This document shows positions 9,643-13,854 of a stretch of 46,887 nucleotides of DNA, piece by piece. This stretch comes from Spirochaetaceae bacterium (lineage in GTDB: Bacteria > Spirochaetota > Spirochaetia > DSM-27196 > PWMO01). Below the pieces are notes generated by a model. The model worked only from the letters and a program-made list of their open reading frames with translations. It searched no databases and was not told the origin of the DNA. The stretch spans positions 1 to 46,887 of the forward strand of contig REDW01000072.1 in the NCBI GenBank assembly GCA_007693325.1. The letters are read 5' to 3'. Every line of letters begins with the position of its first letter. Positions within the stretch are counted from its first letter, which is position 1. Position numbers and translations under genes: made by a program.

Positions 9643-11781
9643 ATGAAATCTGCAACCAGGCGCAGACGGTGGGCAGCAATTGCGCTGCTGCTGCTGGCTG
9701 CGTCGCCGCTGCACGCGTTTGAAGGATTGCGGGACATCGCCGTTACTCATGAGATCACGCGGCTGCTGCTGCAGCTGGGAGTCATCATCCTGCTTGCGCG
9801 TCTGGGCGCCGCAGCAGCCAGACGGCTGCGCCTGCCGTCGCTTCTGGGAGAGGTCTCGATCGGTCTGCTGATTGGGCCGTACGCGCTGGGAGCGTTGGCG
9901 GTTCCCGGATTTCCCGACGGTCTGTTCCCGCTGGCCGAAGGGCCGTTCTCGGTCTCGCTGCAGCTGTACGCTTTTGCCGCGGTGGGTGCTGTGATTCACA
10001 TTCTGGCGGTGGGTCTGGAGTCCGATCCGGGGCTGATTCGCCGAATGACGCGGCGCGGTCTGGCGGTAGCGATAGGCAGCAGTGCGGCAGCGTTGCTGGT
10101 GGGAGTTGCCGTAGGTGTGATCTACCTCGACTATCCGATAACCGATCAGCGGGTGCTGTTCTTTGCGGCATTGTCGGTCTCGACCTCGCTGGGGGTCCAG
10201 GCGCGGATCATGGTTTCGCAGCACCGGCTTACCAGTCCCGAGGGTGCGGCAATTATCGGTAGTTCGCTGCTGCAGGACGGCACCGCCATCGTGGTGCTGG
10301 CGGCTGCTATGGCGCTGGATCCGCAGGCCGGTGCGCAGACTTCGTGGGCTCACGCCGCGCCGGTTGCGCTAGTGGCGTTCGTGGTCTGGATGGGCGGATT
10401 TGCTATCGCATTGGCAGCGGCACCGTGGCTGGCGCGTACGTTCCACAGCTCTTCTTCTGCCAATGTCTTTGCCGTGCTGGCGGTGGCCTTGGCGCTGGTG
10501 CTTTCGGCTGTATTTGAGACGTTTGGCGTAGCGGCCATTATCGGGGCCTATATTCTGGGACTGGCGTTCTCGCGGACCGATATTGCCGACATTCTTGAGG
10601 AGAAGATCGCGCCGGTAACGGCGTTCTTCGTACCGGTCCTCTACGTGGTCATGGGTATGCTGATCGATATCCGTGTGCTGATAACTCCGGCGGTATTGCT
10701 GCCGGGAATCAGTTTTGCGCTGGTCTCGGGACTGGCCAAAGTCATAGGCGGCGGCGTTCCGGCGCTGGCCATGGGCTTCAACCGCTGGGGCGCGCTGCGC
10801 GTTGGGCTTGGCACGGTGCCGCGTGGTGAGATTGCGCTGATTATCGGGGCTGTCGGCCTGGCAAGCGGTATTCTCTCACCAACCTCCTTCAAAGTCATGG
10901 CTGTGATGGTAGTGGTTTCGGTGGCTATCGGGTCACCCCTGATTGCCGCGGCCTTCCGCCACGGGGGTGGCGGGACGCGCGGTGCGTGGGCCGGATCGGA
11001 GCGGGTTGTCACCGACCTCGATCTACCCAACGAAGAGCTGACGCAACTGCTAGTTGCCGGTGTTCTGCGCGCCGCCGAGCAGGACGGATTCTACGTGCAC
11101 CGCATGGAGTTGTCGGAAATCGTCTACCGCCTGCGCCGAGACGAGGTATTTCTTACCTTGAAGCACTATCCTGCGCGAGTGGAAGTTTCCTGCGAGGCCA
11201 GGGACAGCGGTCTGGCCAAGACGCTGGTCTACGAAGTGCTGATCCATCTGCGCGATAGAATCAGCCGCTTGACCGAAGTTACGGTTCCCGAAGAGTTGCG
11301 GCGCAGCGTAGCCTCCGGGGAGGGGAGGAGGGAGGTCATGCTCAGTTCATATCTCGAAGCCGACTGCGTTATCGTGCCGGTCAGCGCATCCGAAAAGTAC
11401 GGAGTTATCACCGAGCTGGTTGATGTGCTTGCTGCCGGGGGGAAGCTCAAGGATCGGGACAGGGTACTAAACGATGTGATCGAGCGTGAGCGGTCGGTCA
11501 GCACCGGTATGGAGCACGGCATAGCTATCCCGCACGCCAAGACCGACGGCGCCGAGAAAATCGCCGTGGCGGTTGGCGTTTCGCACAGCGGAATTGACTT
11601 TCAGGCTGTCGACGGGCAGCCGTCAAAGCTGATATTTCTGATTGCTTCACCCACCGTCAGCCGTGGCCCGCATCTGCAACTGCTGGCATCGATAGCCACG
11701 CTCAGCCGGCGGCCCCGGATGATTGCTGCGGCCGTTGAAGCCACGCAACCCGATGAGGTAGTGCAGGCGCTCTCGGGTTGA
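9643..11781 (+). CDS. CPA2-type cation:proton antiporter fused to a PTS EIIA (PtsN-like) domain
   Basis: A 712-residue protein. Residues about 8-25 look like a signal peptide or first hydrophobic helix. Residues about 35-435 contain around twelve membrane segments of the Kef/NapA-type sodium/proton exchanger fold, including GEVSIGLLIGPYALG and the later EIALIIGAVGLASG. A soluble linker (about 440-560) follows. Residues about 565-712 match PTS EIIA type 2: SVSTGMEHGIAIPHAKTDG with the phospho-acceptor His631, and GPHLQLLASIA. Family knowledge suggests ion exchange gated by phosphorylation of the EIIA part. The EIIA is in the same reading frame with no break. The transported ion is not known. 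Confidence 0.85.
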   Translation: MKSATRRRRWAAIALLLLAASPLHAFEGLRDIAVTHEITRLLLQLGVIILLARLGAAAARRLRLPSLLGEVSIGLLIGPYALGALAVPGFPDGLFPLAEGPFSVSLQLYAFAAVGAVIHILAVGLESDPGLIRRMTRRGLAVAIGSSAAALLVGVAVGVIYLDYPITDQRVLFFAALSVSTSLGVQARIMVSQHRLTSPEGAAIIGSSLLQDGTAIVVLAAAMALDPQAGAQTSWAHAAPVALVAFVVWMGGFAIALAAAPWLARTFHSSSSANVFAVLAVALALVLSAVFETFGVAAIIGAYILGLAFSRTDIADILEEKIAPVTAFFVPVLYVVMGMLIDIRVLITPAVLLPGISFALVSGLAKVIGGGVPALAMGFNRWGALRVGLGTVPRGEIALIIGAVGLASGILSPTSFKVMAVMVVVSVAIGSPLIAAAFRHGGGGTRGAWAGSERVVTDLDLPNEELTQLLVAGVLRAAEQDGFYVHRMELSEIVYRLRRDEVFLTLKHYPARVEVSCEARDSGLAKTLVYEVLIHLRDRISRLTEVTVPEELRRSVASGEGRREVMLSSYLEADCVIVPVSASEKYGVITELVDVLAAGGKLKDRDRVLNDVIERERSVSTGMEHGIAIPHAKTDGAEKIAVAVGVSHSGIDFQAVDGQPSKLIFLIASPTVSRGPHLQLLASIATLSRRPRMIAAAVEATQPDEVVQALSG

Positions 11782-11809: not shown

Positions 11810-12754
11810 CTAACGCTTGCCGGTAACCTTGATGATGTGATAGCCAAACTGCGTCTGCACCGGATCGCTGACCGATCCTACACCGCTCTTCCTGACCGCA
11901 TCTTCAAACGGCTTGACCATCTTGCCTTCACCAAACCAGCCGAGGTCTCCGCCCTTCGATTTGCTCGGACAGGTCGAGTGCTGCCGCGCTACTTCTTCAA
12001 ACCGCGCACCCTGCTTGATCTCCTGCCTGAGACGGCGCGCCAGGTCCTTGCTCTTGACCAGAATATGACTTGCTCTCCATTCCATCAGGCGATTGTCCGC
12101 AAACAGTGCCCGGAGGTCAAGAAACCGAGGGGCAAACGATTCAAACAGCGCGGCAGCCGCCAGGTCTACAACGGGCCGTGTGCAACGCCCGATAATCCCG
12201 GTATCGCTGCTGGCCAGGCTACCGTCCTGCAATGATACCAGGGTCTCATCCACCCGCTCTACCGCAGAACAGCGAAACTCCCGCCCCCGCCCTTGCAGCA
12301 GGCGAGCGTGTTCGAGGCTCCACGCCACCGGCCTGTCAAACAGCACCTCGCAGTGCTCGATATGGTTTGATCTGACTGCAGCGACCAGCGCATTGTGCAC
12401 CTGCTGCAGCCGTTCGTCGATCGGCAACCGGTTGTGCGTTCCGCCGATGTCGCGCATGAAACTATCGGTTGCCAGAACCAGGGGGCGGCCGGCCAGGTAG
12501 TTTGCCACTGTGAACAGGACATTGAATCCGTCGATGTAGAGTGGAGTCGGCGCGCTCTGCGGCGCTACCCGCCGCTCGCTGTTGCGTGCGGACGCTGCTT
12601 CTGAGAACACCCCGCGGTGCAGTATCGCGCGCTCGGTACTCGACAGCCGGTACCGGTCTCCTACCAGTTTGAGCACGCCCTGATCGGGATAGCCGCGGTC
12701 GAGAAGGTAGCGGTAGTCAAAGCACGCGGCGCGCAGCGAATCGCTGATGAGCAT
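11810..12754 (-). CDS. DUF434 protein fused to a parvulin peptidyl-prolyl isomerase
   Basis: A 314-residue protein of two parts. Residues about 1-50 carry [20 protein letters not shown] and [17 protein letters not shown], typical of DUF434. Residues about 70-220 ([28 protein letters not shown]) match its usual partner domain DUF5616. Residues 224-314 are a complete PpiC-like parvulin, with [29 protein letters not shown] and QFGYHIIKV. Parvulins isomerise Xaa-Pro bonds; DUF434 is uncharacterised. There is no signal peptide, so it is cytosolic. An internal ATG at residue 224 could start a free parvulin, but no good ribosome site precedes it. A promoter with ideal spacing serves the upstream start. 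Confidence 0.8.
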
Positions 12755-12840: not shown

Positions 12841-13854
12841 GTGAAACATGACCGGTTTTCTGAGGATCTGCTGCGGGAAGTACATCACAGGACACAGCTA
12901 CCGCTCGGGGTCAGCCGCTACTACGCCGGTCTGGCGGCCAGTGAGGATCCCGGCAGCGATCCGATTGCCGCACAGTACGTTCCTCAGCCGGCCGAGCGGG
13001 AGATTCGCGCGTACGAAGATCCGGACCCCATCGGTGACGAGCGCTATGCCGTGGCGCCCCGGCTGGTGCACCACTACTATGACCGTGCTCTGCTGCTGGT
13101 CAATGACCGCTGCGCGGTCTATTGCCGCCACTGTTTCCGGCGCCACTTCACCGCCAACGGTGCCGGCCGAATCACGCCGGCTGAACTGGAGCAGGTCTGC
13201 GATTACCTCGGCCGGACGCCGCAGGTGCGCGAGGTGCTGCTCTCCGGAGGTGATCCGCTGATGCTGGCTGACGCAGAACTGTTCGCGGTGGTCGACCGCT
13301 TGCGCAAGGTCGCTGACTACCTGATCCGGCTGTGCACGCGCATGCCGGTGGTCCTGCCGCAGCGCGTAACCGAGGCGTTTGCCGCGGCGCTGGGAGCGCG
13401 GCTACCGGCGTGGGTGGTGGTGCACGTCAATCATCCGCACGAGATCACGGACTCATTTGCAACGGCTATCGGACGCTTGCTCGGCGCCGGAGTGGCGGTA
13501 GCCAACCAGACGGTTCTGCTGCGCGGCGTCAATAACCGGGCAGCAGTGCTCGAGGCGCTGTTCACCGGATTGCTGCGGCTGGGTGTGCGTCCCTATTACC
13601 TTTTCCAGGGTGATCTGGCCAGCGGAACAGCGCATTTTCGCACCACTATCGCCGAAGGGCTGGAACTGATGCGCACACTGCGCTCGCGCCTGTCCAACCT
13701 CGCGCTGCCGACGTATGCGGTCGATCTTCCCGGCGGCGGCGGCAAAGTAGCGATTGAAAGTGCGTTACTGCGCACGGAACCGGACGCCTACGTTCTGCGC
13801 GGCCCCGACGGCAACGAGTATCGCTATCCACAAGAAAATGCATCGTCGTCATGA
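12841..13854 (+). CDS. KamA-family radical SAM protein (lysine 2,3-aminomutase/EpmB-like)
   Basis: A 337-residue protein. The radical-SAM cluster motif C-x3-C-x2-C is at Cys91, Cys95 and Cys98 (CAVYCRHCFRR). LLSGGDPLML is the SAM-binding GGxP-type segment. PGGGGKVAI near residue 300 keeps the lysine that binds PLP in lysine 2,3-aminomutases. Its short length and loss of the long C-terminal part fit EpmB, which isomerises lysine for modification of elongation factor P, but a free-lysine mutase cannot be excluded. Neither efp nor epmA is nearby. The start is uncertain: GTG at 12841 lacks a clear ribosome site. It is divergent from the DUF434 gene. Confidence 0.82.
   Translation: MKHDRFSEDLLREVHHRTQLPLGVSRYYAGLAASEDPGSDPIAAQYVPQPAEREIRAYEDPDPIGDERYAVAPRLVHHYYDRALLLVNDRCAVYCRHCFRRHFTANGAGRITPAELEQVCDYLGRTPQVREVLLSGGDPLMLADAELFAVVDRLRKVADYLIRLCTRMPVVLPQRVTEAFAAALGARLPAWVVVHVNHPHEITDSFATAIGRLLGAGVAVANQTVLLRGVNNRAAVLEALFTGLLRLGVRPYYLFQGDLASGTAHFRTTIAEGLELMRTLRSRLSNLALPTYAVDLPGGGGKVAIESALLRTEPDAYVLRGPDGNEYRYPQENASSS

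Follow-up and report, generated by a model that had tools for sequence, protein, structure and literature searches.

A DUF434-DUF5616 protein fused to a complete parvulin in one spirochaete genus, with a promoter-like site before the parvulin start

Introduction

When a protein of the DUF434-DUF5616 family runs in frame into a complete parvulin, are two genes seen shortly after an accidental joining, or one established gene, and does that gene make one product or two? This question is raised by a locus in contig REDW01000072.1 (assembly GCA_007693325.1) of a Spirochaetaceae bacterium, whose 46,887 nucleotides form the window analysed here. A preliminary description of the locus considered both a recent stop-codon loss and an established fusion, and proposed that an internal ATG could also give a separate isomerase. 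Here we analysed the gene, its relatives and its neighbours, and weighed the explanations that they allow.

Results

One open reading frame carries both halves

The minus-strand ORF from 12754 to 11810 started with ATG and comprised 314 codons with zero internal stops, so that the in-frame joining of a DUF434-DUF5616 protein to a full parvulin was confirmed (Table 1). Pfam matched DUF434 at residues 7-57 (E 1.3e-18), DUF5616 at 71-200 (8.8e-21) and Rotamase_3 at 234-313 (4.1e-24). The scores were 66.8 bits for PF04256 (DUF434; gathering score 27), 75.1 bits for PF18481 (DUF5616; 27.6), and 84.5 and 85.8 bits for the PpiC-type parvulin families PF00639 and PF13616 (cut-offs 21.7 and 22.5). By these scores residues 224-314 are a PpiC-type parvulin and a predicted prolyl isomerase. 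The neighbouring kefB-EIIA antiporter (window 9643-11781) ended in a PTS EIIA type 2 domain.

Table 1. Coordinates of the fusion gene, its parts and its neighbours, and of methylase genes beside related DUF genes
Feature	Position	Strand	Basis or remark
Fusion gene DUF434-DUF5616-parvulin, 314 aa	11810..12754	minus	ORF, Pfam; also whole in G003 and interrupted by a contig end in G004
DUF434 domain, residues 7-57; four helices in the model (5-61)	12584..12736	minus	Pfam and model
DUF5616 domain, residues 71-200; predicted PIN/FEN-like alpha/beta fold	12155..12544	minus	Pfam, alignment, model
DUF C-terminal tail and linker, residues 201-223; equal length in three of three fusions	12086..12154	minus	Codon comparison
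-35-like hexamer TTGACC, inside the FLDL codons	12115..12120	minus	Promoter scan
-10-like hexamer GACAAT, codons D220 and N221	12092..12097	minus	17 nt after the -35, 6 nt before the ATG
Internal ATG (Met224), position of the stand-alone parvulin start Met	12083..12085	minus	Alignment
Complete PpiC-type parvulin, residues 224-314	11813..12085	minus	Pfam, alignment
kefB-EIIA: Na+/H+ exchanger with C-terminal PTS EIIA, convergent with the fusion	9643..11781	plus	Neighbour
Radical-SAM lysine-2,3-aminomutase-like (kamA-like) gene, divergent from the fusion	12841..13854	plus	Neighbour
SpoU-type RNA methylase loci beside a DUF434-DUF5616 gene	L030 2160-2879; L034 1962-2651; L039 1027-1722; L041 737-1432		

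The genus was represented in the searched set by six genomes, G000 to G005, G000 being that of the window, and three of them (G000, G003 and G004) carried the fusion. The G003 protein was 78% identical to that of G000, with 314 codons in each and without an indel. That of G004 was 94% identical and met a contig end after residue 289, and residues 271-314 of the fusion were found at the start of another contig. In G001 the DUF and parvulin halves were encoded by distinct genes, each on its own contig; G002 had a DUF fragment alone, cut by a contig end, and neither half was matched in G005 at E 1e-5.

The parvulin half is complete and begins at the start position of stand-alone relatives

At the position of Met224, the 19 aligned stand-alone parvulins all had the Met of M-[EQ]-[WF]; these were taken from loci returned by the searches and had been chosen by a motif that itself requires a Met shortly before [AS]SHI. 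Many of their frames are open further upstream, by up to 104 codons. The Met224 equivalent is likely to be the start of the stand-alone proteins, as had been proposed, and translation from it in the fusion would give a product of the 91 residues first described. The columns of H230, M279, F303 and H306 were invariant in 21 aligned parvulins, and we take these residues to have the roles of the parvulin active-site His, Met, Phe and His. Two active-site residues of PpiC, Met57 and Phe81, are named in PMC7353009. The fused copy was the sole small parvulin found in G000, a genome 97.5% complete; the only other parvulin match there, at E up to 1, was 36% identical and lay inside a 516-aa frame.

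A promoter-like site precedes Met224

TTGACC-N17-GACAAT was the only promoter-like site on either strand between positions 11600 and 13000 (mean of 0.2 in shuffled sequences), and hexamers so spaced reached at least 5/6 for the -35 and 4/6 for the -10 at 0.12% of random window positions. The site was kept with equal spacing in all three fusions, the -10 reading GACAAT in G004 (read from L001) and GAAAAT in G003. Similarly, the stand-alone parvulin of G001 was preceded by TTGACG-N17-GACAAT-N8-ATG. Among the stand-alone parvulin genes, 14 of 19 had a hexamer matching TATAAT in at least four positions and ending 5-9 nt before the ATG, compared with about 6.5% of random positions. L017, L018, L020 and L021 had Shine-Dalgarno-like words instead, and the hexamer of L015 reached only 3/6. 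With the spacing seen in the stand-alone genes, transcription would begin at the ATG or close to it and give a leaderless mRNA.

We then compared the 45 nt immediately upstream of Met224 in each fusion with the corresponding stretch of G001. The alignment score was matched by 1 (G000), 17 (G003) and 2 (G004) of 20,000 random 45-mers from the window, corresponding to fractions of 5e-5, 8.5e-4 and 1e-4. The upstream regions of four other relatives' parvulins aligned worse, scoring 15-22 against G001 and 20-27 against G000, compared with 36 between G000 and G001. As far as tested, this upstream stretch is common only within the genus.

These observations suggest that Met224 may start a separate 91-residue parvulin, transcribed from a candidate leaderless internal promoter. 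The proposal of such a second product thus gained a promoter-like site at leaderless spacing, and the product itself stays a prediction. The main alternative, somewhat less probable than two products and still a serious one, is that the gene makes a single 314-residue protein; the site would then be a chance feature of the coding sequence or a relic in decay, and Met224 would be kept only for the first strand of the parvulin. This alternative would explain why the -35 lies in codons for F-[LIP]-DL, a tail motif common to several unfused DUF proteins, and why the -10 is weak (4/6, with G replacing the first T). It is also compatible with the codon-by-codon conservation of synonymous sites over the promoter, which draws on three sequences from only two well-separated lineages and cannot show constraint on the site. 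It does less well with the presence of a sole promoter-like site in 1.4 kb, with its retention in every fusion at the distance from the ATG that most stand-alone relatives examined show and that suits a leaderless transcript, and with its alignment to the sequence preceding the parvulin of G001.

The junction seems to lie at a synteny break

In G001 the stand-alone parvulin gene was convergent with kefB-EIIA, with 6 bases between the ORFs; 28 bases separate the fusion from kefB-EIIA in the window. The DUF fragment of G002 was divergent from a kamA-like gene, as in the window, and the kamA-like genes of G001 and G005 had other neighbours within the stretch read. From these neighbours, the junction of the two protein halves seems to coincide with a break in synteny, and we infer that the parvulin stayed in place and that the DUF gene, flanked on its far side by kamA, arrived upstream of the parvulin. 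In G001 and G005 the kamA-like gene was adjoined by a small separate ORF of 153 aa that resembles kefB-EIIA. At L011 (G001:C239, upstream of 1504), the frame preceding the stand-alone parvulin differed from the upstream neighbour in the window; its end reads, presumably, like that of an ABC-transporter ATPase.

In a tree of 38 DUF proteins, the three fusions formed one clade (100/100) and the G001 DUF protein belonged to the sister group of 12 (98/93). Being not itself sister to the fused proteins, it may not be their unfused ortholog. A permissive blastx search for a DUF remnant ahead of the parvulin in G001 returned RPV.DL...FLD....F.DN at the right place with an E of 2.2, accompanied by many chance rows, several of them with a better E. 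When 90 nt of G001 were aligned with 120 nt of the fusions with long gaps, the score was matched by 7 (G000), 3 (G003) and 0 (G004) of 5000 random segments; when only sequence upstream of the -35 block was aligned, 253, 851 and 55 of 5000 scored as high, which is not convincing. Two routes are accordingly compatible with these scores: a joining of the DUF gene to the promoter region of the parvulin at a short common TTGAC-like word, or the loss of an older DUF neighbour from G001.

The DUF half is predicted to have a PIN-like fold

Alignment A2 covered 22 of the 24 DUF loci read (three fusions and 19 unfused proteins), L047 having been missed by the start-finding pattern and L053 excluded for a long insertion. 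Both Pfam domains were matched in all 22 proteins, and 21 residues were invariant, every one of them kept in the fusions. The invariant Asp residues were D13 in DUF434 and D75, D97, D102, D140, D169, D184 and D197 in DUF5616; the seven of DUF5616 are candidates for an acidic metal-binding cluster as in PIN/FEN-like nucleases. A model of residues 1-222 (mean pLDDT 94.2) consisted of the four DUF434 helices followed by an alpha/beta domain. A full-length model from alignment A5 reached a pLDDT of 91.8 and a pTM of 0.72; joint alignments A1, A5 and A6 put DUF segments wrongly onto the parvulin, A5 served for the full-length model only and A6 was unused.

FEN-1 (one row), ExoIX (seven) and Rae1/YacP (two) made up the top ten rows of VIA-align for the model, with Z of 9.1-8.0, and MCPIP1 had a Z of 6.6; VIA-align only re-ranks the list of Foldseek, and a best Z of 7-8 is typical of models without a clear match. 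FEN-1, ExoIX and Rae1/YacP belong to one PIN/FEN-like superfamily. Foldseek on the PDB gave no match at E 0.001 or better, the best being Csm6 at 0.079, and a PDB profile search returned one chance row only (E 1.1). In a Pfam search at E up to 10, whose filters drop most matches above about 0.1, no PIN or NYN family was matched, nor did PF05991 (NYN_YacP) match any of five DUF5616 domains, including that of the window. On the strength of the model, DUF5616 probably has a PIN-like nuclease fold, and the DUF part may thus be active as a nuclease.

At residue 189 (window 12188-12190), all 19 unfused proteins of A2 had Asp and all three fusions Gly. Ser or Ala occurred there in some other spirochaetal DUF proteins, so that Gly189 need not abolish activity. 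Another DUF434-DUF5616 protein of the class, L130 (G225:C10, 1093-2310), carried a C-terminal extension of about 120 residues, in which Pfam found nothing at E 0.001; we assume that its HPYEEPAV stretch recalls NIF3/YqfO-like proteins.

Both halves are constrained and the fusion is established

Between G000 and G003 (NG86), residues 1-210 gave a dS of 1.33 and a dN/dS of 0.15, the DUF half ranging from 0.10 to 0.16, and the parvulin gave 0.77 and 0.034. Both halves are therefore under purifying selection in this comparison, and the fusion is old enough for selective retention, because G003 keeps it at a dS of about 0.8-1.3 with both halves constrained. In the close pair G000-G004 the parvulin gave a dN/dS of 0 (NG86), and the constraint on the DUF half is much weaker, with 0.42 over residues 1-210 from few changes (14 synonymous, 17 not). 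That figure, the Gly189 of all fusions and the patchy occurrence of DUF5616 within the order (24 of 46 genomes), where it appears dispensable, could be taken to mean that the DUF half is an inactive passenger and that the parvulin alone works. We regard this as improbable, given the low dN/dS of the DUF half between G000 and G003 and the retention of every residue invariant among the 22 proteins.

A search of 394 genomes of the class at E ≤ 1e-40 returned 34 rows, and none of the 31 non-fusion rows spanned both halves; several parvulin rows of the same search started at query residues 190-220, upstream of Met224, and some contained stops. DUF5616 was detected in 34 of 392 genomes of the phylum, and also in the Methanocaldococcus, Sulfolobus and Methanosarcina controls. 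Among 30 DUF loci of the phylum, the DUF frame was located by motif in 24, and a parvulin was seen in none of these, L118 showing a loose parvulin word only. The remaining six had open frames of 237-251 aa, too short for both parts. The fusion is therefore established and lineage-restricted, being confined to part of one genus as far as searched (genomes of the class Spirochaetia and loci of the phylum). A recent stop-codon loss or an assembly artefact in this one genome is hardly credible and was ruled out as an explanation, for although the halves are encoded apart in G001, a member of the genus, which is one half of the refuting result named in the preliminary description (two genes in relatives together with reads showing a missed stop codon or frameshift), the fused gene recurs in three separate assemblies, indel-free in diverged G003 and again in G004.

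Neighbours and partners that may point to RNA

A SpoU-type methylase gene adjoined the DUF gene in all four DUF-bearing genomes of one related genus, one of them assigned by Pfam and the other three being 67-71% identical to that one. A calcineurin-like phosphoesterase gene lay on the other side of the DUF gene at L030, L034 and L041. According to PMC6613710, B. subtilis rae1 is co-transcribed with yacO, a 23S rRNA methyltransferase homolog, and loss of rae1 or yacO suppresses the lack of EF-P. A pull-down with E. coli PpiC, as described in PMC7353009, recovered BipA, EttA, NusG, Rho, ProQ and ribosomal proteins, and also FabH, RbsB and AhpC. YacP was found in none of 41 genomes, including that of the window, at E 1e-5, with positive B. 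subtilis and Synechococcus controls. The methylase neighbour, observed in a single genus, the parallel with Rae1, the PpiC partners and the absence of YacP make an RNA or ribosome role plausible, each link being weak, and by this analogy we hold such a role for the nuclease-isomerase fusion to be possible but rather doubtful.

Discussion

The explanation that we favour, at about even chances, is that a predicted PIN-like nuclease and the sole small parvulin found in the genome have become an established fusion, restricted to this lineage, and that the one gene gives two products. A DUF434-DUF5616 gene would have landed directly before the parvulin, which stayed beside kefB-EIIA, and the stretch that carried the parvulin's promoter would now be translated as tail and linker. 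From the upstream start, a 314-residue nuclease-isomerase would be made, and from the promoter-like site 6 nt before Met224 a leaderless mRNA would give the free 91-residue parvulin. Some PpiC partners, and the ribosome-dependent Rae1, suggest by analogy that the fused parvulin would direct the nuclease to clients containing proline, whether at the ribosome or on proteins that bind RNA. Use of the internal promoter, the route of origin and nuclease activity are put forward conditionally, as is the ribosome or RNA role, which is the weakest step. A bolder extension, which we consider unlikely, is that DUF434-DUF5616 proteins form a ribosome- or RNA-directed nuclease family that takes the place of Rae1/YacP in the spirochaetes studied here, and perhaps in archaea too, that the tethered isomerase inspects ribosomal partners or nascent chains that have stalled and contain proline, and that the old parvulin promoter, now coding, would still yield free isomerase.

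Altogether, these results describe a real, selected, lineage-restricted domain fusion in which an embedded promoter is plausible. For a family without described function, this provides metal-dependent nuclease action as a testable activity and a PpiC-type isomerase as a physical partner. The locus also offers a readable case of how a fusion may be tolerated: the promoter region of the downstream gene is now translated and has seemingly been retained, and the fusion and the original parvulin product may thus both stay available. In the open-licence literature searched, we found no mention of DUF434, DUF5616 or COG2454; the literature search also found no parvulin/PIN-domain fusion protein and, judged from the listing, nothing like a leaderless internal promoter in a gene fusion.

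Compared with known systems, residues 224-314 match the stand-alone parvulin PpiC (E. coli PpiC, 1jns) as a complete copy and reach 89% identity with the stand-alone parvulins of relatives; unlike these, the fused parvulin follows in frame on 223 residues that belong to a different family. For the DUF434-DUF5616 proteins known from spirochaetes and archaea, the 22 aligned here have both domains, and the 19 unfused ones among them differ from the three fusions in being without a parvulin. The best structural matches of the DUF5616 model, at the Z values given above, have the flap nuclease fold of FEN-1 and ExoIX, with 105-135 residues aligned at 14-16% identity and without a match at the sequence level. 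The model also matches Rae1/YacP (NYN_YacP, PF05991), a ribosome-dependent endoribonuclease of B. subtilis, over 114 residues of 5mq8 (Z 8.1, rmsd 3.6), but the family differs from Rae1/YacP in lacking a sequence match to PF05991, in its extra helical DUF434 domain and, in three genomes, in the fused parvulin. The fusion is thus built of known kinds of parts, and what is new here is the prediction of a PIN/FEN-like fold and the promoter-like site before Met224.
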